Below are positions 7,188 to 38,558 of a stretch of DNA of 40,026 nucleotides, piece after piece. The stretch covers positions 1-40,026 of the forward strand of contig JAPWUD010000014.1 in assembly GCA_028275705.1 (NCBI GenBank). Reading direction: 5' to 3'. The translations under genes and the position numbers were made by a program. The stretch comes from Desulfurococcaceae archaeon (GTDB lineage Archaea; Thermoproteota; Thermoprotei_A; Sulfolobales; Desulfurococcaceae). Position 1 is the first letter of the stretch; each line of letters starts with the position of its first letter. Below the pieces are notes generated by a model. The model was not told the DNA's origin, ran no database searches, and saw only the letters and a list, made by a program, of their open reading frames with translations.

Positions 7188-7625
7188 CTAGTGCACTCCT
7201 TTCTGTATTTTCTCAGCATAAGCCTCTGGTGTCAATAAGGATTCGTATTCTCTTGGATCTACTGGCTCTATTTTTATGATCCAGCCTTTACCATATGGGT
7301 CTTTATTGAGTAGCTCGGGGCTTGCCTCGAGATCTTTATTGACTTCCACTACTTTACCTGATAGTGGCGCGTAGTATGGTGAAGTTGCTTTAACGGAGTC
7401 TATCATCCCCACTTCCTCACCTTTCTTGAGTACTCTACCAATTTGAGGTAGCTCAACGGCAACTATGTCTTTTAATTCTTTCTGGGCATAGTCTGTTATA
7501 CCTACTATGACTACTCCTCCCTCTAGCTTAGCCCACTCATCTGTCTGCGTATACCTCCGGTCAGTTTTAACTATGTACTCTTTTCCCTTCACCTTTACAA
7601 GTACATCACTCAACCTGACCACCAC
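7188..7625 (-). CDS. gcvH: Glycine cleavage system H protein (lipoyl carrier)
   Basis: 145 residues. The H protein carries the aminomethyl group on a lipoyl lysine between the P, T and L proteins. The lipoyl Lys is Lys79 in MIDSVKATSPYYAPLSG, followed by the usual GKVVEVN and a PYGKGWIIKIEP segment near 108-119. The open frame begins with tandem GTG codons at 7623-7625 and 7620-7622. The gene lies 34 nt downstream of glyA on the same strand. Downstream (6952-7187) is 236 nt of A/T-rich sequence holding only the deoC promoter. Lipoylation enzymes are not encoded in this window. Confidence 0.95.
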   Translation of the reverse strand: MVVRLSDVLVKVKGKEYIVKTDRRYTQTDEWAKLEGGVVIVGITDYAQKELKDIVAVELPQIGRVLKKGEEVGMIDSVKATSPYYAPLSGKVVEVNKDLEASPELLNKDPYGKGWIIKIEPVDPREYESLLTPEAYAEKIQKGVH

Positions 7626-7659
7626 TTAATCCTAGATTTATCTATATATAAAAAATACT

Positions 7660-9000: not shown

Positions 9001-9030
9001 TAGACACCACCCATATTAAACTATAGAGCC

Positions 9031-9040
9031 CCTATATAAT
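9031..9040 (-). promoter_or_regulatory. TATA-like element before glyA
   Basis: The minus strand reads ATTATATAGG directly after the gcvT stop codon. The predicted transcript start near 9010 lies at the GGGTGGTG ribosome site, so glyA-gcvH may be expressed independently of gcvT. Confidence 0.4.
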
Positions 9041-10165: not shown

Positions 10166-10187
10166 GTCACTTGATATGGCAAGATAC

Positions 10188-10195
10188 ATTTATAA
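10188..10195. promoter_or_regulatory. Bidirectional TATA box between gcvT and gcvPA
   Basis: ATTTATAA reads as TTATAAAT on the minus strand, so one A/T box can serve both directions. On the minus strand its centre is about 26 nt from the gcvT ATG at 10165 (leaderless). On the plus strand it predicts a transcript start near 10217, just before the GGGTG site at 10222-10226. A second plus-strand box, CATATAAG, lies at 10207-10214 but is close to the start codon. Confidence 0.5.
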
Positions 10196-10232
10196 CTTCA
10201 ATCCTCCATATAAGCGTAAACGGGTGTCTTGC

Positions 10233-11636: not shown

Positions 11637-11642
11637 TGGAGT

Positions 11643-13208
11643 ATGCGCACATATAGGCAGGCAAATTGGAGTGAACCATTAATATTTGAGCTCGGATCTC
11701 CAGGTAGATTGGGGATCACTCTACCAGAATTAGAAGACGAGGTCAAGAAAGTCGTTGGAGGAGTGAAAATACCCGAGTCCATTAAGAGGAGTAAACCACT
11801 TAGTTTACCAGAGTTGAGTGAAGTAGAGGTTACACGTCACTTCACTAATTTAACTCAAATGGCTTATGGAGTAGACAATGGCCCCGTACCACTTGGATCC
11901 TGCACAATGAAGTTTAACCCGAGGATAGCTTGGGATCTATCCTTCAACAGTGGCGTTGACCAACTACACCCACTACAAGATGAGAGAACAGTCCAGGGAT
12001 TACTCGAGGTAATGTATGAACTACAGAAATGGCTTGCCAACATTGTAGGCATGGATGCCTGTACACTTCACCCAGCAGCTGGCGCACACGGTGAGTTAAC
12101 AGGTGTGCTTGTTATTAGGAAGTACCATGAGTTGAAGGGTCAATTAGATAAGAAAAAGGAGATTGTAATACCTGATAGTGCACATGGGACTAACCCAGCT
12201 AGTGCCGCTATGGCTGGGTTTAAAGTTATAGAGGTCCCATCTGGTAGTGATGGAAACGTTGACTTCGAGGCTTTGAAATCAGTTGTTGGAGAATCCACTG
12301 CTGGATTAATGATTACTAATCCCAATACTCTTGGATTATTCGAGGAGAGGATACTAGAGATCGCTGATCTACTCCACAAGTACGATGCACTACTATACTA
12401 CGATGGTGCAAACCTAAATGGGATAATGGGCTATGCGAGACCTGGAGATATGGGCTTCGACATAGCACACATAAATATACATAAAACCTTTAGCTCACCG
12501 CATGGTGGGGGAGGTCCTGGCTCTGGACCTATATGTGTTAAAAACAGGCTTGTAGATAGGGAGAAGGGGATTTATCTAAGTGACTTATTGCCAGGCTATA
12601 TTGTAGTGTATGATGAAGAGAAGGGGATTTATAGACTTAAGGGTCCCGGATCACACAGTATTGGTTTATTGAAATCCTTCTTTGCCAACACTATTCCACT
12701 ACTATGGGCCTACGTATACATAGCAATAATGGGTCCACAGGGATTGAGGAAAGTCACTGAGCACTGTGTCTTGATCACTAATTACTTCGCTAAGTTAATG
12801 AATGGTGTTAGAGGATACGATATACCATACGGTAAGGGTAGGTTTAGAAAACACGAAGTCGTATTAAGCGCTAAGCCCATGGCCGACGAAGTTGGTGTTA
12901 CAGCCGAGGATGTTGCTAAGGGATTGCTGGATGCTGGATTCTATGCCCCAACAATATACTTCCCACTAATAGTGAAGGAAGCCCTCATGACAGAGTTCAC
13001 GGAGACTGAAACACCTGAGAACATTGAGAGATACGTGGAGAGGTTGAAGGAAATTAGTAAGATAGCATATGAAAACCCCTCAAAGCCAAAAGAGTGGCCA
13101 CTAAACACGAGCGTTGGGAGATTGGATATTGTTAAAGCAAACCACCCCAAGTATGTTGCACCAACGTGGAGAGTCTATGTGAAGAGATTGAAGGGAGAAT
13201 TGAAGTGA
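11643..13208 (+). CDS. gcvPB: Glycine dehydrogenase (decarboxylating) subunit 2, PLP-binding
   Basis: 521 residues. The PLP lysine is Lys281 in INIHKTFSSPHGGGGPGSGP. PLGSCTMKFNP (83-93), HPAAGAHGE (143-151) and the DSAHGTNPASA segment (178-188) are diagnostic. It catalyses glycine decarboxylation together with GcvPA. The ATG at 11643 follows a strong GGGGGTGATGGAG ribosome site formed over the gcvPA stop. The end overlaps the lpd start (GTGA), so the three plus-strand genes are one operon. Confidence 0.96.
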   Translation: MRTYRQANWSEPLIFELGSPGRLGITLPELEDEVKKVVGGVKIPESIKRSKPLSLPELSEVEVTRHFTNLTQMAYGVDNGPVPLGSCTMKFNPRIAWDLSFNSGVDQLHPLQDERTVQGLLEVMYELQKWLANIVGMDACTLHPAAGAHGELTGVLVIRKYHELKGQLDKKKEIVIPDSAHGTNPASAAMAGFKVIEVPSGSDGNVDFEALKSVVGESTAGLMITNPNTLGLFEERILEIADLLHKYDALLYYDGANLNGIMGYARPGDMGFDIAHINIHKTFSSPHGGGGPGSGPICVKNRLVDREKGIYLSDLLPGYIVVYDEEKGIYRLKGPGSHSIGLLKSFFANTIPLLWAYVYIAIMGPQGLRKVTEHCVLITNYFAKLMNGVRGYDIPYGKGRFRKHEVVLSAKPMADEVGVTAEDVAKGLLDAGFYAPTIYFPLIVKEALMTEFTETETPENIERYVERLKEISKIAYENPSKPKEWPLNTSVGRLDIVKANHPKYVAPTWRVYVKRLKGELK

Positions 13209-14575
13209 AGTATGATGTTGCAATAATTGGATCGGGCGTTGGAGGCTACCCAGCAGGATCATACCTAGCCGGTAAGGGGTTGAAAGTAGCTGTTATAGAG
13301 AAGCACTTAATTGGCGGGGAGTGCACTAACTACGGCTGCGTACCAAGTAAAGCACTCTACCAATTCGCAGAGGCGGTTAAAACAATTGAGAAAATAAATG
13401 GAGTAGCGGAGTATAAGTGGAGTGAACTCATAGAATGGGCTAAAGGAGTGGTCAAGGAATCCCGTGAGGGGATTAGTTATCTACTGGAATCCAAGGGGGT
13501 TGACCTATATAATGGAGTAGCATTAATTGAATCCAATAAAAGAGTTAAAATTAAGAACTCAGCGGAGCTTAAAGAGATCGAAGCAGACAAATTAATAGTA
13601 GCTACTGGAACAGACCCTGGGGATATACCAGTCGCTAGGTTTGATGGGTCGGGGATTATTAGTAATAGAGAGGCATTATACCTAGACGATAAGCCGGAGA
13701 GTATGTTAATAATTGGTGGGGGAGTAGTTGGAGTTGAATTAGCCAACGTATTCAGCGCTTTCAAAGTCGATGTAACTATAGTTGAGCTACTAGACCACAT
13801 ACTCCCATTCACAGATAGAGACATAGCACTCGCTGTGAAAACACACTTATCTCAGAGAGGTGTGAGGATCATTGAGAAGACAACTGTGGGTAGATTGGAG
13901 AAAGCTAGTGGTAAGTACCATGCGGAGTTATCTAATGGCGAGAAACTCGAGGTAGACAAGGTTTTAGTCGCTGTTGGGAGAAAGCCTAATACAAGAGGTA
14001 TTGGATTAGAAAACCTGGGTGTGGAGCTAGACTCCAAGGGGTTTATAAAGGTAAGCGAGAGAATGGAGACAAGCACTCAAGGGGTATTTGCAACGGGAGA
14101 TGTTGTTGGAGGCCCCCTACTAGCACATAAAGCCATATTGGAGAGCATTATAGCTGGTAGAGTTATCAGTGGAGAGGAGGCTCCTAGATTAGACTATAAA
14201 CTAGTGCCTATCACAATATTCACGGGTCTTGAAGTAGCCTCAGTAGGCTACACGGAGAAGGAGCTGCAATCTATGGGTTTAAAGTATGTGAAGTACAGGA
14301 TCCCACTATACTACTTATCCTCTGTGAAAATCAAAGGCGGTAAAAATGCATTTGCGAAGATAATACTAGATGAGAGGGGTGGAAGAGTACTGGGTATACA
14401 TATTGTTGCACCAAATGCATCAGAAGTCGTATCAGCATACATACCACTCTACATCGGTAAAATGAACTTAAAAGACGCTGCCCAAGTACCATACCCTCAT
14501 TTAACAGTATCGGAGTCTCTAAGAGACTTCGCCGAATACATACTTGGCGAGCCAGTACATCTCCTCAAGAAATAA
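13205..14575 (+). CDS. lpd: Dihydrolipoamide dehydrogenase (glycine cleavage L protein)
   Basis: 456 residues from GTG 13205. It reoxidises the dihydrolipoyl group of GcvH with NAD+. The FAD site is VAIIGSGVGG near the N-terminus. The redox disulfide lies in GGECTNYGCVPSK (Cys40 and Cys45). A second Rossmann motif is IIGGGVVGVELA, ATGDVVGGP is the FAD-binding ATGD, and YPHLTVSESLRDFAE carries the C-terminal His-Glu pair. The frame extends upstream to 13166 inside gcvPB. GTG 13205 is chosen because it overlaps the gcvPB stop as GTGA, and GGGAG lies about 10 nt upstream. No 2-oxoacid dehydrogenase genes are nearby, so glycine cleavage is its likely role. Confidence 0.93.
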   Translation: MKYDVAIIGSGVGGYPAGSYLAGKGLKVAVIEKHLIGGECTNYGCVPSKALYQFAEAVKTIEKINGVAEYKWSELIEWAKGVVKESREGISYLLESKGVDLYNGVALIESNKRVKIKNSAELKEIEADKLIVATGTDPGDIPVARFDGSGIISNREALYLDDKPESMLIIGGGVVGVELANVFSAFKVDVTIVELLDHILPFTDRDIALAVKTHLSQRGVRIIEKTTVGRLEKASGKYHAELSNGEKLEVDKVLVAVGRKPNTRGIGLENLGVELDSKGFIKVSERMETSTQGVFATGDVVGGPLLAHKAILESIIAGRVISGEEAPRLDYKLVPITIFTGLEVASVGYTEKELQSMGLKYVKYRIPLYYLSSVKIKGGKNAFAKIILDERGGRVLGIHIVAPNASEVVSAYIPLYIGKMNLKDAAQVPYPHLTVSESLRDFAEYILGEPVHLLKK

Positions 14576-25705: not shown

Positions 25706-27124
25706 TCATATTCCAAGTATTATTGGTATTATAAAGTACGAGAACAATGTAGCAATAAATACCGAGATAACCATCAATACCACTCCCGCCTTAGCCATTT
25801 CATAGTTTTTAAAGAATCCATAAGAATATGCAATAGCGTTTGGAGGCGTATTCGCTGGTAGAATAAAAGCGAATGTAGAGGCAATACCCGCTGCAACCCC
25901 TCCTATGATCGGGTTTAACCCCACTCCTCGAGCTATAGCTATCCCTAGGGGGACAGCGAGAGATGCTGTAGCGGTTATACTGCAGAACGCGACGACTAAG
26001 AGACTGGAGATCAGGGATATCGCGAAGACTATTGCTATGGGGCTATAGCCGGATAGAGAGTGCATTGCAATTGATGAAAGGAACTCCACAAGGCCAGATT
26101 CACGGAAGCCAGCACCTAGTGCTAGGCCTCCTGCAATCAGGAATAATACTCCCCAATCAACACCCTTACTTACATCATCCCATGTCACTGTACCCACTAC
26201 TGGGAGTATGTGTATCGTTATTACTACCAGTGAGGCAATATACGTCCAGTCCTTCAAAAGTTGTGAGGCGATGGGGTCAATGATCCAGAGTAGTGCAGAA
26301 ACTAGAAACAGTAATAGAGCTTGTAGTCTCCTACCCGTTAACAAGCCAATCTTTCTCGCCTCTAATTCAATTGTTAATCTACCACCCTTCACTACCTCTA
26401 CCTCGGGCTTATACATTGCTATTAGAATAAACCAAGCAATAATTGTTAAAATCAATGCAATTGGAATACCCCAGAGCATCCAAGTAGTGAACCCTATAAC
26501 AACCCCTGTAGACTTCTCAATATTACTTATTGTTATGGGGTTTGGTGGAGTACCAACTGGTGTACCAAGACCACCTATAGTTGCTGCATATGCTATACCA
26601 ATCATCATCGCCTTACCGAGATTCCGGGCTGCCCTTTCTTCGCCAAATAAACCCAACATACCTACACCTATTGGAGCCATTATAGCTGCTGCAGCTGTAT
26701 TTGGAATCCACATTGATAGCGTGGAGGTTGCCAGCATCATTCCTAGAACCACCCTCTCAGCTTTCTCACCCATGAAGCCGAGGAACTTTACACCAATGTA
26801 TCTATCAACGCCATGTCTCGACAGAGAAAGTGCTAGAACTTCACCTGCAAGCATTAACGCAATGACTTTATCAGCAAAGTAGCTATATGCTTTGTCGAAT
26901 GGGAGTATGCCCTCGACAACTAGTAGGAGTATAATTAATACACTCGTTAGTGGAATGGGTATTAACTCTGTAGACCAATAGAAAACTGCTAGAAAAGCGA
27001 TCCATAGGACTCTCCATGCACGGGGATTCAAATTAAGTGGAGGAGGTATTAGCATCGTAAATAATACTATTCCAAAGACAATGGCGATTACAGACACTTT
27101 CTTCAAACCATTGACTCCCTCCAA
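25706..27124 (-). CDS. DASS-family dicarboxylate (divalent anion) transporter
   Basis: 472 residues, about 11-12 membrane helices. The paired family signatures are present: MWIPNTAAAAIMAPIG in the first half (SNT-like clamp), ITATASLAVPLGIAIA, and PANTPPNAIAYSYG near the C-terminus, plus GGLGTPVGTPPNPITI. DASS proteins move succinate, malate, fumarate or sulfate, often with Na+ or by exchange. Lying directly downstream of the fumarate reductase genes, it probably imports C4-dicarboxylates or exchanges them for succinate. The frame begins at TTG 27124; TTG 27106 behind GGAGGG is an alternative. The 148-nt upstream gap holds a TATA-like CTTTTATTTCC, so it may be separately transcribed. Confidence 0.88.
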   Translation of the reverse strand: MEGVNGLKKVSVIAIVFGIVLFTMLIPPPLNLNPRAWRVLWIAFLAVFYWSTELIPIPLTSVLIILLLVVEGILPFDKAYSYFADKVIALMLAGEVLALSLSRHGVDRYIGVKFLGFMGEKAERVVLGMMLATSTLSMWIPNTAAAAIMAPIGVGMLGLFGEERAARNLGKAMMIGIAYAATIGGLGTPVGTPPNPITISNIEKSTGVVIGFTTWMLWGIPIALILTIIAWFILIAMYKPEVEVVKGGRLTIELEARKIGLLTGRRLQALLLFLVSALLWIIDPIASQLLKDWTYIASLVVITIHILPVVGTVTWDDVSKGVDWGVLFLIAGGLALGAGFRESGLVEFLSSIAMHSLSGYSPIAIVFAISLISSLLVVAFCSITATASLAVPLGIAIARGVGLNPIIGGVAAGIASTFAFILPANTPPNAIAYSYGFFKNYEMAKAGVVLMVISVFIATLFSYFIIPIILGI

Positions 27125-28931: not shown

Positions 28932-29645
28932 CTACACCTCTAAATCCCCTGGTAATCGACCAGTTTTTAAGTACTCATCATAGATCTTCCTCAACGAGCC
29001 AGGATCCATTGACAACAATTTTGCAAATGCATTGTTAAATCTACCGCTCTCTATTTCCTTCACCCGCTGCTCCACACTCCTAGATCTAGGCATATAATAC
29101 ACACCTACAATTCTACCAACGAGTCTAAATACAGCTGGATGCCTAATCTCCGCTGGACACCTGAGACTACATAGTCCGCATGCAATGCAGTCAAATGTCA
29201 ACTCAGCTGCTTTCCTCAAATCCCCCCGTAGAATAGCTTGGATAGCATCCATTGGACTGAGGCCTTGAGGGCATGCCTTTGAGCAGGCATTACAGCTGAC
29301 ACACCTAGAGATCTCTGGGTATAGTTTTAACACATAGCCTGCATCGGGCTTCAACTCCTCCCTGCGTGGAACATACTCAACTAGTGGTACATATGGTATT
29401 AGACTAATATACATTCCATCCTCAACTGGTGTTTGACAGGCTAACCCTACTCTAATCTTGTAGTCGCCTGGTAGCCTGTAAACTACTGGACATGCACCGC
29501 AGAAGCCGCCTCTACAGCCAGAGCCCCTTGTGAATCTAAATCCAGCGTATTCAAGGGCTTTCATTATTGTTAATCCATGTGGGACGCTGTATGCTTCTCC
29601 ATTGAAGAAGATAGTTATGTATCTACGTAGAGGCGCTTGACTCAT
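28932..29645 (-). CDS. tfrB: Fumarate reductase iron-sulfur subunit (TfrB/SdhB-like)
   Basis: 237 residues. An N-terminal plant-type [2Fe-2S] domain has Cys44, 49, 52 and 70. A ferredoxin-like domain with two [4Fe-4S] sites follows, Cys115/118/121/125 and Cys153/156/159/163. It passes electrons to the flavoprotein. Two complete [4Fe-4S] motifs resemble TfrB rather than SdhB, which has [3Fe-4S] and [4Fe-4S]. TfrB of methanogens carries a C-terminal HdrB-like CCG region; here that region is missing and an HdrB gene lies just upstream. No membrane anchor gene is present. ATG is used with GGGG 7 nt upstream, and a TATA-like TTTTTAAAT at 29688-29696 suggests an internal promoter. Confidence 0.85.
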   Translation of the reverse strand: MSQAPLRRYITIFFNGEAYSVPHGLTIMKALEYAGFRFTRGSGCRGGFCGACPVVYRLPGDYKIRVGLACQTPVEDGMYISLIPYVPLVEYVPRREELKPDAGYVLKLYPEISRCVSCNACSKACPQGLSPMDAIQAILRGDLRKAAELTFDCIACGLCSLRCPAEIRHPAVFRLVGRIVGVYYMPRSRSVEQRVKEIESGRFNNAFAKLLSMDPGSLRKIYDEYLKTGRLPGDLEV

Positions 29646-29687
29646 GAATAACCCCTATTAAATCTAATTAACCGCTCGAATATAAGC

Positions 29688-29696
29688 ATTTAAAAA
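29688..29696 (-). promoter_or_regulatory. Possible internal promoter before tfrB
   Basis: TTTTTAAAT on the minus strand lies 43-51 nt before the tfrB ATG, in the longest gap (61 nt) inside the array. The predicted start near 29666 gives a leader of about 20 nt. Confidence 0.35.
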
Positions 29697-29706
29697 CAAC
29701 ACTTGA

Positions 29707-30519
29707 TCACCCTTGTAAAGCCCGGAGTGGTAGCTCTAACACTCCAAGCGCGTGTGCAATGAGCTCAGATAAGTGCATAGCCCTGAGATCAGTGTACTTC
29801 CTAAGGTTTGAGAGACAAAGTGGACAAGGTGTTACAACAATACTTGCTCCTGAATCCACAATTGCTCGAGCTATTTTACCCGTGTTCCTAGCAACTATAC
29901 TGGGCTCCAATATTGAGTGGAATGAACCACAGCAATAGGACTTCAATGGATAATCCACAGGCTCTGCACCAAGCTCCCTCAGAATACTCTCCACTAAGAC
30001 TGGCTTATCTGGATTATCCAAGGCAACTGCTCTCGGTCTTAAAAGCATGCACCCATAATACACTGCTACTTTGAGGCCGCTCAACCTCCTCCTCGCGAGT
30101 TTAGATAGATCAGATCTACTCTCATATAGAACCTCCACGAAGTGCGCTACTCTCAGTCCACCCCTATAAGGTTCAACCTCGTCTTTGAGGTATTCTACAA
30201 CTCTCCTGTAGATATCTGGCTTCGTTGAGTATAGTTTCTCCGCTTGCTTTAGCGTATTGTAGCAGAATGGACAGAGTGTCACAATGGTATCGCCCTCCGT
30301 CTCCCTCTTTTGTTGAATGGCCTTGGATAGAGTTCTAATTGATGAAACATACTTAACGTGGTCTAAACTCGTTGAACCTGGATATCCACCACAGCAATAC
30401 CAATCCCTCAACTCCACTACTCTATAGCCAAGTGCTTCTAAGACAGCTATTCCAGCTCTCTCGGCCTCTGGGTAGTCTCTCTTCAAGCTACAGCCCGGGT
30501 AGTATAGGAGTGTCTTCAT
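29707..30519 (-). CDS. hdrB: HdrB-like CCG-domain iron-sulfur protein
   Basis: 270 residues with two complete CCG domains. Domain 1 has Cys10, Cys42-Cys43 and Cys83/Cys86; domain 2 has Cys157, Cys196-Cys197 and Cys232/Cys235. In HdrB each such set binds a non-cubane [4Fe-4S] cluster that reduces a disulfide; related domains occur in TfrB and archaeal SdhE. It is soluble. Next to tfrB it may act as the missing C-terminal part of TfrB, linking HdrC to fumarate reductase, rather than as a heterodisulfide reductase. ATG follows GGGGTGA at 6 nt, 6 nt after hdrC. Confidence 0.87.
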   Translation of the reverse strand: MKTLLYYPGCSLKRDYPEAERAGIAVLEALGYRVVELRDWYCCGGYPGSTSLDHVKYVSSIRTLSKAIQQKRETEGDTIVTLCPFCYNTLKQAEKLYSTKPDIYRRVVEYLKDEVEPYRGGLRVAHFVEVLYESRSDLSKLARRRLSGLKVAVYYGCMLLRPRAVALDNPDKPVLVESILRELGAEPVDYPLKSYCCGSFHSILEPSIVARNTGKIARAIVDSGASIVVTPCPLCLSNLRKYTDLRAMHLSELIAHALGVLELPLRALQG

Positions 30520-30525
30520 AGTGTA

Positions 30526-30900
30526 TCACCCCGTGTTCCTCCTCGAGTATACAACGAGTTGAATAGTTGGTGTGCTCTCATCTATTGCAAGCTCACTATA
30601 CTTCTTCAATTCAACACCATTTTTGAGTGCAATCATCCTCAACGCCTCGATTACTAATCCTGGTGCAACATCCCTTGGACACTTATCAACACAAGCCATG
30701 CAACCGACGCAAATCCATATAGACTTAACACTAGCTAAGTCAATGTCGCCTCTCTGAGCCCTCCTCACTAAAGCTGCTGGGTGTACATCCATAAAGCTCG
30801 ACACTGGGCATACTGCAGTGCATAGTCCACACTGCATGCAAGCCGCTACTTCTCTCCCAATATACTCCCTAATGTACTCCCTCAACTCAAATCCAGTCAT
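30526..30900 (-). CDS. hdrC: HdrC-like bis-[4Fe-4S] protein
   Basis: 124 residues from ATG 30900. Two ferredoxin motifs, Cys21/24/27/31 in CMQCGLCTAVCP and Cys64/67/70/74 in CVGCMACVDKCP, carry electrons from HdrA to HdrB. It is soluble, short and without membrane segments, like cytoplasmic HdrC. The frame extends upstream to 30915 over the mvhA stop. ATG 30900 is chosen because GGTGGGG lies about 6 nt upstream. hdrB follows after 6 nt. Confidence 0.88.
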   Translation of the reverse strand: MTGFELREYIREYIGREVAACMQCGLCTAVCPVSSFMDVHPAALVRRAQRGDIDLASVKSIWICVGCMACVDKCPRDVAPGLVIEALRMIALKNGVELKKYSELAIDESTPTIQLVVYSRRNTG

Positions 30901-30902
30901 CT

Positions 30903-32366
30903 TCAACCCCACCACAATACCTCACCCTCTTCACTTACAACCATAAGAGTGAATGATACAGGCTGAGAGTGTCCATTAATCCTCAATACGTGTGTTGCAC
31001 AGCTATTGCATGGGTCGTAAGCCCTAATCATCGACTCCATTATGGCTATTGTCTCGCGGCTCGGCTCTCCCTTTGATCTAATCTCCTCCACTAGTCTACC
31101 CGACACCTTGGTCAAGTTTGTATTTATAGCCATGTTGTTTATCGTAGTTGGAGTTATAACTCTAGCACTCGTAGCGATCAATTCTCCATTACCCGTATAG
31201 TCGTGTATGAGAATACCGCGGGGGGCTTCCAGAACCCCTATTCCCCTCTCAACTGGAGAACCCGTAATGTTGACTAATCCACCCTCATATAACTCTGGTT
31301 TATCCATAATCTCCCTCATCATCTCTATGCAGTGGATTATCTCCACTAATCTAGCCCAGTGTGCATATAGGAGGTTAGATATTGGCTTTCCACCAGCATA
31401 CTCCACTAACTCCCCATACTCTAAGCTAGCTTTCTCACCTCTAACTCTACTAGATACATTAATCCTAGCGAGTGGGCCGACAAGGATCGTTGACTCCTCA
31501 CTAAACAACTTAAACCCAGCTTGCTTATAGTATGGTAGAGTTGCATAATTCCACGGAACTGTAGCCTCACCAATTAAATCACTATACTTTGAGTTATCCG
31601 CGATCTCTGCAACAACCCTTCCCTTAGAGTCAATGAGCCTTAAGGCCCCATCGTACAGCTCTAAATCACCACCCGATACAAGACCCAGGTTATATGCCTT
31701 TAAGTCAAATTCACCTCTCTCAGCGAGCTTCCTCAATAAACCACTGTAAACCACCCTGTCTTTGAAGAACTCATGCAACTTCATAGTCAAATCGCTTATC
31801 TCACCAAGGATCTTCTCGGCCTCGGCAATTTCATCCCTATTGAAACCCCTCGTCACACCACCTGGTACAACAAAACCCCCATGCTGAATTTTACCAACAA
31901 GCTTCTTCTCTAGAACCTTGAATAGACTACGCGTCTTTAAGGCAGCCTCGACGAGCCCTGGGTTCTTAGCGAGGAGTTTAGATATGTCTCGCTGCATCTC
32001 ACCCCATAACGTTACATCTGGTAGCCCAATAAATGCAAAGTGTAGTAGGTGGCTATCTAGTACTTGGATGTAGTTTACTAGTTTCCTCACTAGAGTAGAT
32101 CTCGGTGTCGGCCTGCGCCCGAATACCACATCAATAGCTTTACCCGATGCTAAGTGGTGGGACCAACTGCACACACCACATATAGCTGACATAATTCTTG
32201 GCAATTCCTCCATTTTCCTACCAATTGCGAGCTTCTCGAAGCCCCTGAACTCCATGATCTGGTATACTGCCCTAATGTCTCTATCGCCAGTCACTATGAC
32301 TACTCTCGCTACACCCTCGACTAGGGTTACGGGGTCTAGTACTCTATATAATCTATACTCACTCAC
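30903..32366 (-). CDS. mvhA: NiFe hydrogenase large subunit (MvhA-type, group 3)
   Basis: 487 residues. The NiFe ligands are Cys63/Cys66 in CGVCSWSH and Cys453/Cys456 in DPCNSCATH. The protein continues 28 residues past His459, a C-terminal peptide that a maturation protease should remove; no such gene is in the window. VEGVARV at 16-22 supplies the conserved Glu17. The Arg usually found two residues before the first Cys is Ala61 here. No membrane segment. The GTG start overlaps the mvhG stop (GTGA), with GGGTGGC upstream, showing tight coupling. Its place beside mvhG, mvhD and hdrA identifies it as the Mvh type rather than F420-reducing. Confidence 0.9.
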   Translation of the reverse strand: MSEYRLYRVLDPVTLVEGVARVVIVTGDRDIRAVYQIMEFRGFEKLAIGRKMEELPRIMSAICGVCSWSHHLASGKAIDVVFGRRPTPRSTLVRKLVNYIQVLDSHLLHFAFIGLPDVTLWGEMQRDISKLLAKNPGLVEAALKTRSLFKVLEKKLVGKIQHGGFVVPGGVTRGFNRDEIAEAEKILGEISDLTMKLHEFFKDRVVYSGLLRKLAERGEFDLKAYNLGLVSGGDLELYDGALRLIDSKGRVVAEIADNSKYSDLIGEATVPWNYATLPYYKQAGFKLFSEESTILVGPLARINVSSRVRGEKASLEYGELVEYAGGKPISNLLYAHWARLVEIIHCIEMMREIMDKPELYEGGLVNITGSPVERGIGVLEAPRGILIHDYTGNGELIATSARVITPTTINNMAINTNLTKVSGRLVEEIRSKGEPSRETIAIMESMIRAYDPCNSCATHVLRINGHSQPVSFTLMVVSEEGEVLWWG

Positions 32367-33325
32367 TTCAAGCCACCCTTCTTCAACTCTCTGAGTTTAT
32401 AAAGCATTGACTTCCTCAGAGTATACCTATAGAATGTTCCAATGTAGTCTCTTAATTTATCAATCTCCCTAGTGAGGCCCGGCTCTAACAGCGACTTCTC
32501 CGAGTCAACGAGTAGTATTGACCCAATACTCGATATCATTGAAACCCCACTATCTCCACCCCACTCCAATGGGCCTCCGCAGCCAGTGCATGGATAGTTT
32601 GTCTTAATGCAGCTGTGGTCACATATATTCCTCGTAGCTGGACCCATACACAGTATACCCTGTTCTAGGAAGCACTTCTTGTCATCTAATTCAACCTCGT
32701 GTAGTCTGTAAATCCCCGGCATCTTGATCTTAGTGGTCTTGGGGTTTCTCGGGCACTTATTACACAGTGACTCGGGGTCTCCGAGTAGTATTGGCTTATG
32801 CTCTATTTCACCCTTCACAGCGTACTCTATTAGCTGCTCTAGGAGTTGATCAAGGACTTTACCTGATGGTGGGCAACCAGGTGCGAGAATGTCTGGTTCA
32901 ACTACATCTGTGTACGCCATGTATGGAATGAGTTGAGGTAATCCCAGTGAGTCCCCCTGTATCCAATGGTCTGACTTGCCCATGTTTACTTTGTAGACCT
33001 CAAGTGGTGATGATAATGAGTTTAATCCAGGTATTCCACCATAGACACTGCACGTCCCCAGAGCCACCTTAACTCTAGACTTACTCGACAACTTCCTCGC
33101 TAATTCATACTCCTCACTCGTTGATACTCCACCCATGTAGATTAATGCGTCGATCTCCTCTACAGCCTCGAGATCAGACAGCTTCCTGTCTATGGCGATG
33201 GGCCAGTAGACTATCTCATAGTATTTTAAAACATCGAGTAGTTTCTCCCCTACACTAGCTAATGCTACATCGCATCCTCCACATATAGCACCAGGTATTA
33301 CTGCTAGTTTAAGCACGGCTCCCAC
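32363..33325 (-). CDS. mvhG: NiFe hydrogenase small subunit (MvhG-type)
   Basis: 320 residues. The proximal cluster ligands are Cys15, Cys18 in CGGC, Cys92 in GTCSVYGG and Cys151 in PGCPP. Further cysteines at 188, 191, 218, 226, 235, 239, 246 and 249 supply two more clusters. There is no Tat signal or membrane anchor, so the enzyme is cytoplasmic. The frame starts at GTG 33325 inside mvhD. GGGTGG fits GTG 33316 better (spacing about 5), so three residues may be absent. It overlaps mvhA by 4 nt. Confidence 0.9.
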   Translation of the reverse strand: MGAVLKLAVIPGAICGGCDVALASVGEKLLDVLKYYEIVYWPIAIDRKLSDLEAVEEIDALIYMGGVSTSEEYELARKLSSKSRVKVALGTCSVYGGIPGLNSLSSPLEVYKVNMGKSDHWIQGDSLGLPQLIPYMAYTDVVEPDILAPGCPPSGKVLDQLLEQLIEYAVKGEIEHKPILLGDPESLCNKCPRNPKTTKIKMPGIYRLHEVELDDKKCFLEQGILCMGPATRNICDHSCIKTNYPCTGCGGPLEWGGDSGVSMISSIGSILLVDSEKSLLEPGLTREIDKLRDYIGTFYRYTLRKSMLYKLRELKKGGLK

Positions 33326-33722
33326 CCATTGGGCCGAGTCTCCTAACTTCCTCTACAAATTCATTAACAACCCTCACGAGTTTTGGAGCCTCTGTAGCAC
33401 TAATCCACTCTAATCTAACTCTCTCAGGCTCAACTCCTACTTCAGCAAGCATTTTCCTCAACATGTATACTCGTTTAAACGCCTTGAAGTTCCCTGATGA
33501 GTAGTGGCAGTCGTTTGGAGTGTGGCATCCACCAATTAAGACGCCGTCTGCACCATTAAGAAACGCGCTGACCACTAGCTGTGGGTCGATTCTACCAGTG
33601 CAAGGGACTATTATAGGGACTATGTTTGGATCGTATCTAAGCCTCATAACACCAGCTGTTTCAGCTGCTGAACCAGCACACCACTTACAGAAGAATGCAA
33701 TTATTCTAGGCCTCCAGGACAA
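33309..33722 (-). CDS. mvhD: MvhD-type [2Fe-2S] electron adaptor
   Basis: 137 residues. Conserved cysteines at 12 and 15 (FCKWC), 41 (VPCTGR), 66 and 72 (GGCHTPNDCHY) match MvhD, which carries electrons from the hydrogenase to HdrA. The TTG start at 33720-33722 begins 1 nt... directly next to the hdrA stop at 33723, with GGTGGG in the final hdrA codons as ribosome site. It overlaps mvhG by up to 17 nt. All four neighbours are Hdr/Mvh subunits. Confidence 0.92.
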   Translation of the reverse strand: MSWRPRIIAFFCKWCAGSAAETAGVMRLRYDPNIVPIIVPCTGRIDPQLVVSAFLNGADGVLIGGCHTPNDCHYSSGNFKAFKRVYMLRKMLAEVGVEPERVRLEWISATEAPKLVRVVNEFVEEVRRLGPMGGSRA

Positions 33723-35651
33723 TTAACCCACCTCGAGAACTGATTTAACGACTTCGAGGAGTTGATCCTCTCTATAATTCCTTAAGTGAATTGCGCCCAC
33801 AGGGCATGCAGCCTCACATGCACCACACCCCTCACAAATAGCTTCATTGACGACAGCCTTTCCCTCAACGATCTCTATTGCTCCATATGGACAAGTAGTT
33901 ACACAGATTCTACACCCATTACACTTCTCCTTATCAACCTCCGCGATAATAGGCTCCTTCTCTATGAATCCCCTGAGTAGTAGCTCCGCAGCTTTAGCTG
34001 CTGCACTAGCCGCTTGAGCAATAGTCTCTGGAATATCTTTTGGACCCTGCACAGTCCCCGCTATGAGTACTCCCGGTGTAGGGGTCTCCACTGGTCTAAG
34101 CTTTGGATGGACCTCGCTTGCAAACATGTACTGGTCTACAGGGATTTTCAGTAGCTCAGCTAATTTCCTATTTAGTGATGAAACCATACCCGGGGCCAAT
34201 ACTACGAGGTCTGCCCTTAGCGCTAATTCCCTATTATCTAGTAGATCATACCCCTCGACAACTAGGTCTCCGGTTGAGCCATCTCTATATATCCTTGAAA
34301 CCCTCCCCTTAATATACACAGCACCCTCCTCCTGCACACGTTTATAGAATTCCTCAAATCCCTTTCCACCAGTCCTCACATCTATGTAGAATACATAGGC
34401 TTCACTCCCTGGAACCCTCTCAAGGAATAGCAATGCGTGCTTAGCTGTGTACATACAGCAGATCTTCGAGCAGTATGGTAAGTGGTTTACATCGCGGGAT
34501 CCAACGCACTGTATAAATACGATTCTCCTAACCGGCTTCCCATCGCTAGGCCTCTTAATCTCCCCCTTAGTTGGGCCCTGGACGTCGAGTATTCTCTCAA
34601 ATTGAAGTGAGTCTACAACGTCTCTTATTGAGCCATAGCCATACTCTGGTATTTTCTCAGCTGGATATAGTTCATACCCAGTTGCCAATATAATGGCTCC
34701 AACCTCCTCCTCGACCACTTCTTCTCTTTGCTCTAAGTCTATTGCCTTAACTGGGCATACTCTAATGCATCTACCACACTTAGTGCAGTGGTCGAAGTCA
34801 ACTACGTAGGCTGAGGGAACAGCCTGTGCGAATGGTATATATATAGCCTTCCTCTTGCTCAAACCCCTATTGAACTCGCTAGGCACCTCCACAGGGCAAA
34901 CTCTCTCGCAGAATCCACAGAGTCTACAATCACCTATCTTTACACCACGTGGTTTAACCCTCAATTTAACCCTGAATCTCCCAACATGCCCCTCAACACC
35001 ATCTAATTCTGTTAGAGTGTAGATCTTAACGAGTGGGTGGCGTGAGACTTCAGCCATTAGTGGTGTTAGTATACACTGTGCACAGTCTAGTGTTGGAAAT
35101 GTTTCATGGAGCATAGCCATTTTACCCCCAATACTTGGAGACTTCTCAATCAATACTACTGGAATACCCATCTTGGCTAGTGAGAGTGCTGCAGTTATGC
35201 CTGCAATACCTCCTCCAATAACGAGGACTTTCTTAACTACTTCTATTCTAATAGGCTCATAGACTCTATTACCCCTCAACTTGGCTACAGCCCCGGCAAT
35301 GAGCCTCACAGCTTTCTCCGTAGCCAACGCCTTATCCAAATGGACCCAGCTATCCAGCTCCCTTATAGAAACCATTTCAAACCTATACTTGCTTAAACCA
35401 GCTGTCTCAACAATCCTCGAGAATGTATCATAGTGTAGACTAGGCGTGCATGCAGCGACAACTACACCATCTAGATTCTTCTCCCTTATCGCCCTAGCTA
35501 TCAACTCCTGCCCTGGCTGCGAGCAGAGGTATATGTACTCCTCAGCGTGTACAACACCCGGTATTTTCTTCACTTCTTCAACCACTTTCTTAACGTTCAC
35601 GACACCTGCAATGTTGACTCCACAATTACATACAAATACCCCAACACGCAA
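33723..35651 (-). CDS. hdrA: HdrA-type FAD electron-bifurcation subunit
   Basis: 642 residues, close to methanogen HdrA. Order: N-terminal domain with CNCG (8-11) and Cys43; FAD site VIGGGIAGITAA (144-155); two ferredoxin motifs (Cys242/245/248/252 and Cys289/292/295/299); a cysteine cluster at 382, 394, 398 and 399; a second FAD segment; and two C-terminal ferredoxin motifs (Cys577/580/583/587 and Cys606/609/612/616). In methanogens HdrA splits the electrons from H2 between ferredoxin and the heterodisulfide. The TTG start follows GGTG at about 9 nt. The 37-nt gap before it contains a T/A-rich stretch, so an internal promoter is possible. Confidence 0.94.
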   Translation of the reverse strand: MRVGVFVCNCGVNIAGVVNVKKVVEEVKKIPGVVHAEEYIYLCSQPGQELIARAIREKNLDGVVVAACTPSLHYDTFSRIVETAGLSKYRFEMVSIRELDSWVHLDKALATEKAVRLIAGAVAKLRGNRVYEPIRIEVVKKVLVIGGGIAGITAALSLAKMGIPVVLIEKSPSIGGKMAMLHETFPTLDCAQCILTPLMAEVSRHPLVKIYTLTELDGVEGHVGRFRVKLRVKPRGVKIGDCRLCGFCERVCPVEVPSEFNRGLSKRKAIYIPFAQAVPSAYVVDFDHCTKCGRCIRVCPVKAIDLEQREEVVEEEVGAIILATGYELYPAEKIPEYGYGSIRDVVDSLQFERILDVQGPTKGEIKRPSDGKPVRRIVFIQCVGSRDVNHLPYCSKICCMYTAKHALLFLERVPGSEAYVFYIDVRTGGKGFEEFYKRVQEEGAVYIKGRVSRIYRDGSTGDLVVEGYDLLDNRELALRADLVVLAPGMVSSLNRKLAELLKIPVDQYMFASEVHPKLRPVETPTPGVLIAGTVQGPKDIPETIAQAASAAAKAAELLLRGFIEKEPIIAEVDKEKCNGCRICVTTCPYGAIEIVEGKAVVNEAICEGCGACEAACPVGAIHLRNYREDQLLEVVKSVLEVG

Positions 35652-35688: not shown

Positions 35689-36300
35689 CTAGGGGAGTAT
35701 AAGAGGCCTCTTCAATAACTCACTCTTCCTCCTACTACTCTCCTCTACAACCTCCTCTATTAGATTCCTCCCAGTTGAGTCAATAGCGACAACTAGGGGA
35801 CCGAAATCAACTACTTCGAGAACCCATACAGCCTCTGGTACACCAAGGTCTAGCCAGTGTACATCAATTACTCTCTTAATAGACTGCGCTGCCAATACAC
35901 CTGCTCCACCAGTGAAAGTAGTGTATACTGCACCATGCTTCACGCATGCTTCAGCAGTCTTCCTACCCATTCCACCCTTACCAATAACCATTCTAACCCC
36001 AAGCTTCTCAATGACCTCTCCCTCATATAGCTCCATTCTAGTACTAGTTGTCGGCCCCCCGGCCAGTACAATCCACTCACCATTCTTCTTCTGGACAACC
36101 GGGCCACAGTGGTATATTGCCCCTCCTCTAAGGTCGAAGGGTAGTTGTCTACCCTCTTTCAGGTATTCCATGATCCTCCTGTGTGCAGCATCTCGCGCTG
36201 TGTATATTATTCCGGTTAAGTAGACTACGTCTCCTACACGGAGCCTCCTCACATCCCCCTCGGCTAGTGGTGTTTTAAGTCTATACTCCAATAAAGCCAC
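35689..36300 (-). CDS. fumB: Fumarase class I, beta subunit
   Basis: 203 residues. The C-terminal domain of class I (iron-sulfur) fumarase, a separate subunit in archaea. Diagnostic stretches are DVVYLTGIIYTARDAAH, the AIYHCGPVV segment, GGPTTSTRME and GKGGMGRKTAEAC. With the alpha subunit it hydrates fumarate to malate. The frame starts at GTG 36300, 2 nt after fumA; GAGGTGG better fits TTG 36291 (spacing 5). Symbols for archaeal fumarase subunits vary. It precedes hdrA by 37 nt, placing malate-fumarate conversion beside the fumarate reductase system. Confidence 0.93.
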   Translation of the reverse strand: MALLEYRLKTPLAEGDVRRLRVGDVVYLTGIIYTARDAAHRRIMEYLKEGRQLPFDLRGGAIYHCGPVVQKKNGEWIVLAGGPTTSTRMELYEGEVIEKLGVRMVIGKGGMGRKTAEACVKHGAVYTTFTGGAGVLAAQSIKRVIDVHWLDLGVPEAVWVLEVVDFGPLVVAIDSTGRNLIEEVVEESSRRKSELLKRPLILP

Positions 36301-36302
36301 CT

Positions 36303-37181
36303 CTACTGTGTGATTGTATATTCACCATTGGATTTAATTGTTACAGTTGCCCTCCTAGCTGCCCAGCACTGGAACACTACTGCGACAGCGTAGGTTGCTG
36401 GGTGTCTATATGCGTAGTCTACGTGTACATCCAGAGCTGTGACTTTCCCACCCATACCCATTGTACCTACTCCAAGCTCGTTGATCATGTCTCTCAACTG
36501 CTCCTCTAAAGCCGCTATTTTCGGCTCAGGGTGCCTAGAGCCAATTTTCCTTATGACAGCACACTTCTTAGCTAAACTAACAGCTTTATCCACAGTTCCA
36601 GCTATTCCAACCCCTATGATTGTAGGTGGGCAGGGCATAGCCCCTGCCTTAACTACAGCGTCTAAGACGACTTCCTTCACACCCTCAAGCCCCTTCCCCG
36701 GCGGGATCATTGTGAATACTGCAACATACTCTGATCCACCACCCTTCGGGACAATTGTAACCTCTAAGTAGTCTCCACGAGGATCTATTTCATCCCATGT
36801 AATGACAGGAGCATACCTACCAGTATTGTCACCTGGGTTTCTACCAGTTATTGGATCCACGGTGTTAGGCCTTAGTGGAATCTCCCTCGTAGCAATCCTC
36901 GTAGCCTCTATCAAAGCCTCCTCAACAACATCTAGAGCTGGGAATTTAGCACCAGCCTTTATGTAGAATGATAATAAACCCGTATCCTGGCATATTGGGG
37001 CCTTCAGCTTCTCGGCTAAATCAAGGTTCTTGAATATTGCCTCTAACTGAGCCCTCGTAGCTGGGTTTTCCTCCACCTCAAGTGCCTTCTTTAAAGAATC
37101 CTTGACGTCTGGTGGTAGGTAGATCGACGCTACCTTTATACCCTCAACAATAGCCTTTACAATAGTCTCCTTTGATAACAA
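36303..37181 (-). CDS. fumA: Fumarase class I, alpha subunit
   Basis: 292 residues. The [4Fe-4S] cluster ligands are probably Cys64 in PICQDTG, Cys184 in AMPCPPT and Cys272 in FQCWAARRA. GGGSEYVAVFTMIPPG (147-162) is the typical glycine-rich segment. It forms the fumarase heteromer with the beta subunit. TTG start, with GGAGGGG in the end of the malic enzyme gene about 10 nt upstream. The gene lies 7 nt after the malic enzyme, so malate, pyruvate and fumarate are linked within one transcript. Oxygen sensitivity is expected. Confidence 0.93.
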   Translation of the reverse strand: MLSKETIVKAIVEGIKVASIYLPPDVKDSLKKALEVEENPATRAQLEAIFKNLDLAEKLKAPICQDTGLLSFYIKAGAKFPALDVVEEALIEATRIATREIPLRPNTVDPITGRNPGDNTGRYAPVITWDEIDPRGDYLEVTIVPKGGGSEYVAVFTMIPPGKGLEGVKEVVLDAVVKAGAMPCPPTIIGVGIAGTVDKAVSLAKKCAVIRKIGSRHPEPKIAALEEQLRDMINELGVGTMGMGGKVTALDVHVDYAYRHPATYAVAVVFQCWAARRATVTIKSNGEYTITQ

Positions 37182-37188
37182 GACTCAA

Positions 37189-38523
37189 CTACCCCTCCGG
37201 CATTGGGGGTATTAAACCAGCATCCATTAATGCCTTCATCTGCTTTCTGGGTCTCTCAATCAACTCCCTTACCTCAGCCTCTAACTCACTCCTAGACAAC
37301 TTCCTCCTAGCATAGCCAAGCTCCATAGCCTTCTCAGCAACAGCCATGGCCTCTCTCACATATAGCTCTGCCTCCTCCATTGTGCCAATAATTCTATCCT
37401 CGTGTATACCAGTCTCCTCAGTGTACTTTGCAATAGCCTCCGCTGCAGCGTAGAACATTTCATCAGTCATTTTCCTAGCTCTAACCGTTAAAACACCCCT
37501 GAATACTGCTGGGAAACCAAGGCTATTGTTGATCTGGTTGGGAAAGTCCCCTCTACCCGTTGCAACTATCCGGGCTCCAGCCTCTTTAGCCTCCCAAGGC
37601 CAGATCTCTGGTATTGGATTAGCCTCCGCGAAGACTATTGGGTCTTTATTCATTTCTGCAACCCACTCCTTCTTGATCACCCCGGGACCCGGCCTTGAAG
37701 CAGCTATAACTACGTCTGCACCTCTAAGAGCCTCTCTAATCCCTCCTTTAACAAGCTCTGGATTTGTCTCAACCGCGATTCTATACTTCCATGGATTAGT
37801 CTTCTTCAACTCCTCAATATCCTCCCTCTCTCTGTGTAGAATACCCTTAGTGTCGACAACAAGCATGTTCTCGGGTCTAGCGCCAAACACCTTTAAGTAT
37901 CTATAAGTGCAGACATTTGCTGCGCCGGCTCCAACAAGTGTGATCCTAGTGTGCTGTATTTTCCTACCAGTTAGCTTGAGAGCGTTCAGTAACGCTCCAA
38001 TAGTTACAAGAGCTGTACCCTGCTGGTCATCGTGCCAAACCGGTATTTCTAGTATCTCCTGTAGCTTCTCCAGTATATAGAAGCACTTAGGAGACTCTAT
38101 ATCCTCGAGGTTTATAGCTCCAAAACCAGCCTCCATGGCCTTCACAATATATATGAATTTATCTGGATCAGTCTCCTTCAACACTATTGGAACAGCGTCT
38201 ACGCCACCGAGGAACTTAAATAGCAATGCTTTACCCTCCATAACTGGTAATCCAGCAGCTGCACCAATATTGCCTAGCCCCAGAACCCTTGTCCCATCAC
38301 TAACAACGGCCGCAGAGTTCCACCTCCACGTATAGTCGAATGATAAGTCTTCACCTCCAGCCTTAATCCTTCTACAAGGCTCAGCGACTCCAGGAGTATA
38401 CCATATGTTGAAGTCATCTAGTCTTGTAACTGGACACCTAGGTGCAATCTCTATTTTACCCTGGTAGAATCTATGGAGTTTTTCAGCTAGGGCAAACCAG
38501 TCTTTTTTAACCTGACTACTCAT
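37189..38523 (-). CDS. Malic enzyme (NAD(P)-dependent malate dehydrogenase, decarboxylating)
   Basis: 444 residues from ATG 38523. It converts malate to pyruvate plus CO2, or the reverse. Catalytic Tyr42 lies in WYTPGVA and Lys98 in EGKALLFK. Metal ligands are Glu140 and Asp141 in NLEDIE and Asp165 or Asp166 in WHDDQQGT. The dinucleotide site is LVGAGAAN (from about 196). The frame extends to GTG 38532, but GGGTG lies 6 nt before ATG 38523. A TATA box at 38559-38566 places the transcript start near 38536. It is the first gene of the large dicarboxylate-hydrogenase array. Coenzyme choice cannot be told. Confidence 0.94.
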   Translation of the reverse strand: MSSQVKKDWFALAEKLHRFYQGKIEIAPRCPVTRLDDFNIWYTPGVAEPCRRIKAGGEDLSFDYTWRWNSAAVVSDGTRVLGLGNIGAAAGLPVMEGKALLFKFLGGVDAVPIVLKETDPDKFIYIVKAMEAGFGAINLEDIESPKCFYILEKLQEILEIPVWHDDQQGTALVTIGALLNALKLTGRKIQHTRITLVGAGAANVCTYRYLKVFGARPENMLVVDTKGILHREREDIEELKKTNPWKYRIAVETNPELVKGGIREALRGADVVIAASRPGPGVIKKEWVAEMNKDPIVFAEANPIPEIWPWEAKEAGARIVATGRGDFPNQINNSLGFPAVFRGVLTVRARKMTDEMFYAAAEAIAKYTEETGIHEDRIIGTMEEAELYVREAMAVAEKAMELGYARRKLSRSELEAEVRELIERPRKQMKALMDAGLIPPMPEG

Positions 38524-38558
38524 AGAATACACCCATTGCTATATTTAGAGAGGAGTTG

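Follow-up and report, generated by a model that had tools for sequence, protein, structure and literature searches.

In a 40,026 nt stretch of the genome assembly GCA_028275705.1 of a heat-loving Desulfurococcaceae archaeon (contig JAPWUD010000014.1, positions 1 to 40,026, hereafter the window), a gene for HdrB, the heterodisulfide reductase (Hdr) subunit that carries CCG domains, lies between genes for HdrC and for the fumarate reductase-like proteins TfrB and TfrA, which raises the question of which enzyme this HdrB serves. HdrB-labelled genes are routinely read as disulfide reductases, even in organisms without coenzyme M (CoM) or coenzyme B (CoB), leaving a disulfide to be explained. The original prediction was that a 237-residue protein with motifs for one [2Fe-2S] and two [4Fe-4S] clusters and an upstream 270-residue protein with two CCG domains are the separated halves of a methanogen-type TfrB, and that the HdrB-labelled gene may be as much a part of the fumarate reductase as of Hdr. 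Both proteins were confirmed as described from open reading frame (ORF) limits and Pfam matches, and a Pfam scan of the 237-residue TfrB found no CCG domain. The affiliation with the fumarate reductase was supported by a clade of HdrBs restricted to genomes with TfrB, by co-occurrence with TfrB and by the status of HdrB as the genome's only CCG protein. We consider it probable that HdrB is a shared connector within one soluble MvhAGD-HdrABC-TfrAB assembly, dedicated to TfrAB and not the reductase of a free heterodisulfide.

Phylogeny and distribution of the Tfr-type HdrB

A quick tree was built from 148 CCG proteins, comprising the window HdrB, HdrBs of TfrB-adjacent loci, other HdrBs from the same and other genomes, SdhE-like proteins of Sulfolobaceae, the CCG halves of 24 fused TfrBs (TFRC rows) and four solved methanogen HdrBs. 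The loci of relatives were 80 of 266, the reference HdrBs were the best-scoring ones and not a random sample, and the TFRC rows came from the same phylum, not from Methanobacteriota. A single clade of 72 of the 148 rows consisted exclusively of HdrBs from genomes with a short TfrB (Shimodaira–Hasegawa approximate likelihood-ratio test, SH-aLRT, 99). Sixty of its members lie beside TfrB, five at the same locus further off and four beside Fum or malic enzyme-like genes; the remaining three (L069, L196 and L200) carried the script label HDR and were counted as Tfr rows after inspection of the tree, all being from short-TfrB genomes and the TfrB of L069 being cut by a contig end. The clade was repeated with support of 100/99 in a careful 48-row tree, and all 200 bootstrap trees contained it. 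One branch further out, the careful tree, also at 100/99, united the Tfr type with the SdhE-like proteins and four other HdrB rows. Hidden Markov model (HMM) score differences separated the groups without overlap on the rows that trained the models: the 72 Tfr rows lay between +78 and +177, 43 HDR/MHDR rows between -221 and -69, and nine SdhE rows between -381 and -356.

Forcing the Tfr-type HdrBs together with the methanogen HdrBs (5odc, 8rvv, 9sfi, 7bkb) gave an lnL lower by 106 and was rejected by the approximately unbiased (AU) test (p-AU 2.2e-5). The phylogeny called for in the original prediction therefore did not return a firm grouping with methanogen-type HdrB. Forced grouping with SdhE was not rejected (p-AU 0.33), corresponding to a sister placement, and the nearest named kin of HdrB appear to be the Sulfolobaceae SdhE-like proteins. 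The window HdrB scored 101.7 bits against the SdhE model NF042965, below its cut-off of 500; no match in 200 genomes of the phylum passed that cut-off, the Sulfolobaceae SdhE-like rows included.

The notion of a split methanogen TfrB was not upheld. The CCG halves of fused TfrBs formed a separate, distant clade (SH-aLRT 100), and forcing the Tfr-type HdrBs to join them was rejected more weakly (p-AU 0.026), a value that is only moderate and goes with a long TfrC branch. The gene order is reversed, fused TfrB carrying its CCG half C-terminally and the HdrB gene here lying 5' of TfrB. TfrA (291 bits, cut-off 718, NF004900) and TfrB (32 bits, cut-off 385, NF004898) both stayed below the cut-offs of the NCBIfam methanogen models, and gene fission was rejected on clade, order and scores. 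In 17 of the 24 fused-TfrB CCG halves (L158-L174), serine replaces the cysteine matching HdrB Cys83, and one of their CCG domains may hold a different cluster.

Among 398 genomes of the phylum, a short TfrB was found in 15 and an HdrB of at least 263.8 bits in 14, all within those 15. In the one remaining genome, G142, TfrB is adjoined by a partial HdrB match of 156.9 bits, and the top HdrB score in a genome without TfrB was 215.6 bits. CCG proteins occur in ten of 37 genomes of the family, nine of which have TfrB and carry exactly one CCG protein each, adjoining TfrB. The tenth, G013, has a diverged, unrelated CCG fragment (L070:181-657, 24% identity) and no TfrB. In the window's own genome (98.86% complete), the search found two CCG matches, both within HdrB. 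Some HdrB was present in all of 33 further short-TfrB genomes, mostly from outside the family; it was of the Tfr type by tree or HMM in 32, two of them represented by pieces truncated by a contig end or gap, with a single genome undecided. For genomes without a Tfr-type HdrB in the tree, 17 stretches were fetched: G440, G443, G447 and G452 were positive by HMM, G455 has a fragment located where its contig stops, G442 retains 61 HdrB residues next to a stretch of N, and G436 was undecided, its contig ending upstream.

Adjacency was counted for 81 TfrB genes (loci L062-L150, six duplicate loci dropped). HdrB lies directly 5' of TfrB in 59, comprising 55 by ORF limits and four with overlapping frames and abutting domains (L100, L118, L123, L146), and directly 3' of TfrB in none; three loci are cut by a contig end and one by an assembly gap. 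TfrA is directly 3' of TfrB in all 77 testable loci, and HdrC precedes the TfrB-adjacent HdrB in 46 of 49. With HdrABC and a short TfrAB encoded together with a Tfr-type HdrB, the window locus has the gene set of an Hdr-linked fumarate reductase.

Ligands and folds of the component proteins

The ten cluster cysteines of HdrB are invariant in nine of nine family orthologues, are conserved in all Tfr-type rows that span those positions and occur as well in the Sulfolobaceae SdhE-like proteins; a loss of cluster ligands by HdrB was rejected on this basis. The AlphaFold2 model (predicted local distance difference test, pLDDT, 94.3) matched the methanogen HdrB chains 8rwn_B and 5odc_B in Foldseek with template modelling (TM) scores of 0.87 and 0.86, and EtfD (9ojn) with 0.66. 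Retained cysteines and a methanogen HdrB fold would also be expected if HdrB were an ordinary disulfide reductase, acting on a low-molecular-weight disulfide or lipoyl-GcvH, with the thiols feeding fumarate reductase or other enzymes so that the modules communicate through a diffusible carrier. A possible source of a lipoyl disulfide lies in the window itself, in a glycine cleavage set at 7188-14575 (GcvH, SHMT, GcvT, GcvPA, GcvPB and Lpd, names presumed from sequence). This set is, however, about 15 kb from the Hdr-Tfr cluster and does not accompany it in relatives. Such a reductase also sits poorly with a TfrB that has no CCG domain to oxidize thiols, with a genome that has no second CCG protein and with strict TfrB co-occurrence. 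ComA (PF02679) and McrA (TIGR03256) were absent from the window's own genome, in a search that did not extend to other CoM routes or CoB synthesis. In addition, an aromatic residue directly follows CCG-x (position 200) in 72 of 72 Tfr-type HdrBs (Tyr in 67, Phe in 5), where the four methanogen chains have Gly. GcvH or an unknown disulfide was suggested for the HdrB of Culexarchaeia by the authors of a study of that group (PMC9723716). For the HdrB described here we regard a disulfide reductase role as unlikely. A second characteristic residue, Asn238, is present in all 72 Tfr-type rows and in 5 of 39 HDR rows, the methanogen and SdhE rows having Gln.

TfrB was matched to the Fer2_4 and 4Fe-4S dicluster families. 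Its cluster cysteines (C44, C49, C52, C70; C115, C118, C121, C125; C153, C156, C159, C163) are invariant in eight of eight aligned orthologues. The AlphaFold2 model had a pLDDT of 89.2 and a predicted TM score of 0.75, with pLDDT below 50 in the [2Fe-2S] loop 41-47. In a VIA search, the best fold match of residues 99-186 was HdrC (8rwn_C, Z 11.7, root-mean-square deviation 2.1, 87 aligned), level with the ferredoxin portion of the carbon monoxide dehydrogenase (CODH) alpha subunit (Z 11.2). The matches of residues 9-84, with Z up to 9.9, were [2Fe-2S] domains from complex I and from Fe-Fe hydrogenase. Foldseek matches to the whole chain were weak (best E 7.1e-6, TM at most 0.28 among those with E<=0.001) because the two domains are differently arranged; SdhB chains were not among the best 50 rows, which says nothing against kinship. 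TfrB thus appears from the model to be a [2Fe-2S] domain plus an HdrC-like domain and, given that HdrB pairs with HdrC in Hdr, it may have the right fold to meet HdrB as HdrC does.

An HdrC-like fold at TfrB 99-186 could also serve TfrB in docking directly on HdrA or HdrC, with HdrB ending a different branch or being structural, and at L108, L114, L136 and L142 TfrB does lie away from HdrB and near HdrA/MvhD or Flx-type genes. Direct docking is nevertheless quite improbable given that HdrB is the direct neighbour in most loci, that the genome retains a Tfr-type HdrB even where TfrB is elsewhere and that the seemingly HdrB-less L124 is an assembly gap with 61 HdrB residues left beside it.

In TfrA, H324, R365, H437 and R477 are invariant in eight of eight orthologues and align to solved SdhA chains; we take them to be catalytic from the roles of their counterparts in SdhA/FrdA. 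Asn133 stands at the flavin-linking His position of solved SdhA and is Asn in eight of eight TfrAs, so a non-covalent flavin adenine dinucleotide (FAD) is predicted. Losing the covalent flavin bond favours fumarate reduction in the biochemistry of Escherichia coli FrdA. This argues against the same complex running in reverse, with succinate oxidation confurcated with reduced ferredoxin to H2, as do the malic enzyme-like, fumarase-like and dicarboxylate transporter-like genes of the window (names presumed), which fit fumarate supply. The Culexarchaeia authors raised succinate oxidation to H2 above 65 °C (PMC9723716); for the complex described here, we consider the reverse direction very improbable.

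The HdrC of these loci also differs. The number of residues after the second HdrC motif was 48-51 in 52 Tfr-linked loci and 67-115 in 31 other Hdr loci, ranges that do not overlap. This is consistent with a remodelling of HdrC in the Tfr-linked form.

Proposed electron path and its input modules

In the proposed connector assembly, electrons from H2 would enter through MvhA/G and MvhD and be split at the HdrA flavin. One stream would pass from HdrA to ferredoxin and the other through HdrC to HdrB, with its two CCG-bound non-cubane clusters, on to TfrB ([4Fe-4S], [4Fe-4S], [2Fe-2S]), the TfrA FAD and finally fumarate, the proposed high-potential acceptor in a flavin-based bifurcation. The gene content and order, the folds of the single proteins and the conservation of cluster ligands and TfrA catalytic residues are observed, whereas a physical HdrB-TfrB contact, the way the electrons run and their bifurcation are inferred. 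HdrB is assigned the role of TfrAB connector because of the Tfr-only clade, the TfrB co-occurrence, its status as sole CCG protein, the 5' adjacency, the HdrC-like TfrB, the short HdrC and the absence of ComA and McrA. The assignment further rests on the recurrence of HdrC-HdrB-TfrB-TfrA with varying input modules, on HdrABC and TfrAB ligands that outlast those of MvhA and MvhD, and on the CCG clusters that serve as an electron wire in EtfD according to the available part of one report (PMC13083937).

The potential of H2 is -414 mV and that of fumarate +33 mV. The potential of CoM-S-S-CoB has been revised to -281 mV, as given in the accessible portion of the source (PMC12054007). By this comparison fumarate would accept electrons far more favourably than CoM-S-S-CoB, with sufficient driving force for H2 to reduce ferredoxin.

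Elsewhere, the HdrC-HdrB-TfrB-TfrA block is accompanied by a [NiFe] hydrogenase or by NAD-binding Flx-like proteins (L108, L128), lies next to genes for 2-oxoacid:ferredoxin oxidoreductase (L103) or has no recognized input module. On plasmid pILYOP01 of Ilyobacter polytropus DSM 2926 (L286), the order HdrB-HdrC-HdrA-MvhD-Flx-like-TfrB-TfrA lies between aspartate ammonia-lyase and a TRAP transporter, and the HdrB bears the Tfr signature CCGGY and CPLCKYN. Among the nine genomes of the family with the cluster, four (G008, G015, G021 and G029) have lost MvhA Cys66 and Cys456, two of the four NiFe ligands, and one to three of the five MvhD cysteines. The cysteine counts of HdrB, HdrC and TfrB are unchanged at these loci (L063, L064, L065, L067), which appear to hold a decaying hydrogenase within a complete cluster. 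The four genomes group together in the HdrB tree, so that a single loss event would be enough. Loss of hydrogenase maturation along with MvhA was rejected, as HypD is present in all four; it was found in eight of the nine genomes, the miss being G001 (78% complete).

A stronger version of the connector reading seems possible, if somewhat doubtful. HdrB would be an obligate protein-to-protein connector, flanked by the shortened HdrC and by the HdrC-like TfrB domain, making HdrABC a bifurcating fumarate reductase without a diffusible disulfide. In G008, G015, G021 and G029, which form a branch of hot-spring archaea, the loss of half the NiFe ligands of MvhA and much of the [2Fe-2S] site of MvhD would then leave a dead hydrogenase as scaffold, with another electron donor for the Hdr-Tfr core.

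Several observations weigh against a connector role. HdrB is not adjacent to TfrB in 18 of the 81 loci despite the upstream sequence being present, and in L126 and L134 HdrA and HdrB sit together on a different stretch. The sequence of HdrB changes more quickly than those of TfrB and TfrA (35-42% identity across genera vs 57-66%), which is not required of an interface protein. The ten retained cysteines include the two that are displaced during disulfide cleavage in methanogen HdrB, according to the available part of the EtfD report (PMC13083937), so that thiol chemistry is possible. No HdrB was found within 6 kb on each side of a distant TfrAB-like pair on a Cupriavidus metallidurans megaplasmid. 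This pair (L287:5980-8306), a TfrB-like protein (137.8 bits) adjoining a TfrA-like protein (528 bits), represents a distant branch of TfrAB in aerobic bacteria.

The gene cluster and related systems

The contiguous minus-strand cluster extends from 38532 down to 27273 in the order MalE-FumA-FumB-HdrA-MvhD-MvhG-MvhA-HdrC-HdrB-TfrB-TfrA (Table 1). Families of the eight central proteins were taken from Pfam and NCBIfam matches; the names MalE, FumA, FumB and dicarboxylate transporter (DASS) are presumed from sequence. Intergenic gaps are 6 nt between HdrC and HdrB, 61 nt between HdrB and TfrB and 3 nt between TfrB and TfrA.

Table 1. Genes of the Hdr-Tfr cluster and the next downstream gene in the window
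Feature	Position	Strand	Evidence and remarks
Malic enzyme-like (MalE)	37189..38532	-	ORF; name presumed; kept at one cluster end in L062-L068
Fumarase alpha-type subunit (FumA)	36303..37181	-	ORF; name presumed; neighbour kept in 7/8 relatives
Fumarase beta-type subunit (FumB)	35689..36300	-	ORF; name presumed; neighbour kept in 7/8 relatives
HdrA, FAD + [4Fe-4S] protein, proposed bifurcating subunit	33723..35651	-	NCBIfam HdrA2 793.6 bits, positions 1-642 of 777
MvhD/FlpD, [2Fe-2S] link hydrogenase-HdrA	33309..33722	-	FlpD PF02662 E 2.8e-47; five Cys
MvhG, hydrogenase small subunit	32363..33325	-	Oxidored_q6; VhuG E 7.7e-39
MvhA, [NiFe]-hydrogenase large subunit, motifs ICGVC and DPCNSC intact	30903..32366	-	VhuA E 1.9e-56
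HdrC, short form, two [4Fe-4S] motifs	30526..30915	-	HdrC E 3e-20
HdrB, two CCG domains, 270 aa; proposed dedicated HdrC-TfrB connector	29707..30519	-	CCG PF02754 twice, E 5.6e-25
TfrB, short form, 237 aa; [2Fe-2S] domain (9-84) and HdrC-like dicluster domain (99-186)	28932..29645	-	Fer2_4 E 3.9e-9; Fer4_9 E 3.6e-9
TfrA, fumarate reductase-like flavoprotein, ~90 extra N-terminal residues	27273..28928	-	FAD_binding_2 E 1.4e-69
Dicarboxylate transporter-like membrane protein (DASS), next downstream gene	25706..27124	-	ORF; name presumed; outside conserved cluster in relatives

TfrB was found at at least 56% identity in G000, G003, G005, G008, G015, G017, G021 and G029 and as a contig-end fragment in G001, a total of 9 of 61 relatives, and the flanking DNA of the TfrB-bearing relatives held the same cluster in all. 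The order from FumA to TfrA repeats in seven of eight relatives fetched (L062-L068), with MalE at either end, and this recurrence indicates that the arrangement is not due to chance. In the eighth, L069, the HdrA-to-TfrB portion is visible before the contig end. HdrA is 62-81% identical to that of relatives.

An Hdr-linked fumarate reductase is not a new idea and was proposed in print between 2019 and 2022. A bifurcation-linked fumarate reductase was reportedly put forward in a 2019 preprint by Koendjbiharie and van Kranenburg, cited in a paper on Pseudoclostridium thermosuccinogenes. In its accessible part, that paper reports a 'succinate operon' that combines Flx-Hdr with fumarate reductase and rises about 4-fold when CO2 is limiting (PMC7282089). 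Rubin-Blum (2019) reported flxABCD-hdrABC-tfrAB of tubeworm symbionts and Thioflavicoccus and, in the text available, suggested that the interspersed tfrAB, korABCD and flx-hdr form one complex (PMC6315080). These bacterial systems resemble the window cluster in having fumarate reductase genes among Hdr genes and in the proposal of Hdr-mediated fumarate-ferredoxin coupling. Going by their descriptions, and not by sequences, they differ in having NADH (Flx) as donor, in place of the [NiFe] hydrogenase of an archaeon, and their available sections give HdrB no special place and mention neither a Tfr-only HdrB clade nor an HdrC-like TfrB fold.

Tfr with Mvh and Hdr was described in Cloacimonadota by Williams (2021), with CoM-S-S-CoB kept as carrier (PMC8542988), and SdhA, 'CdhA' and HdrA2B2C2 were reported together in Culexarchaeia by Kohtz (2022), with the disulfide left open (PMC9723716). 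The published Culexarchaeia set resembles TfrA, TfrB, HdrA, HdrC and HdrB at L080 and L081, and 'CdhA' may be a misread TfrB, since TfrB matches CdhA (NCBIfam, E 3e-10) and, by fold, CODH alpha. Co-location of Hdr and Tfr is thus published; we found no paper treating HdrB as a Tfr-dedicated clade, in a search that left out most subscription papers, so absence from print is not shown. Passages of PMC11237513, PMC12542636 and PMC5441870 contained nothing relevant to the question. Added here are forms of HdrB and HdrC confined to Tfr systems, an HdrC-like TfrB and the H2-linked desulfurococcal version with its decayed hydrogenase.

Methanogen HdrABC-MvhAGD (5odc) shares HdrA, HdrB, HdrC, MvhA, MvhG, MvhD and the HdrB fold with the window cluster, which differs in its HdrB clade, shorter HdrC, lack of ComA/McrA and attached TfrAB. 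Methanogen TfrAB likewise combines a flavoprotein, a [2Fe-2S]/2x[4Fe-4S] protein and two CCG domains in total, but in the window the CCG part is a separate 5' gene of another clade, and TfrA and TfrB score below the NCBIfam cut-offs. SdhE of the Sulfolobaceae class-E succinate:quinone reductase (MfrE, NF042965) is also a CCG protein paired with a succinate/fumarate flavoenzyme and the nearest named relative in the tree; it is not tied to HdrA/HdrC and has neither Asn238 nor the aromatic at 200. Mycobacterial EtfD resembles the proposed HdrB in that its CCG clusters form an electron relay and not a disulfide reductase, and differs in being a membrane protein that has lost some Hdr cysteines, as stated in the available part of the source (PMC13083937).

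If the Tfr-type clade acts as a relay, the disulfide puzzle would disappear for a broad range of archaea and bacteria, namely Desulfurococcaceae, Culexarchaeia, Bathyarchaeota, Asgard archaea, Bipolaricaulota, Chloroflexales, Clostridia and WOR-3, and Hdr-based bifurcation would gain a direct high-potential acceptor in fumarate. The two kinds of HdrB would then be separated by a signature of Tyr or Phe following CCG-x, an Asn at the third position past CPLC and a shortened HdrC. The named strain I. polytropus DSM 2926, which has the NADH-type version, makes the relay idea testable.

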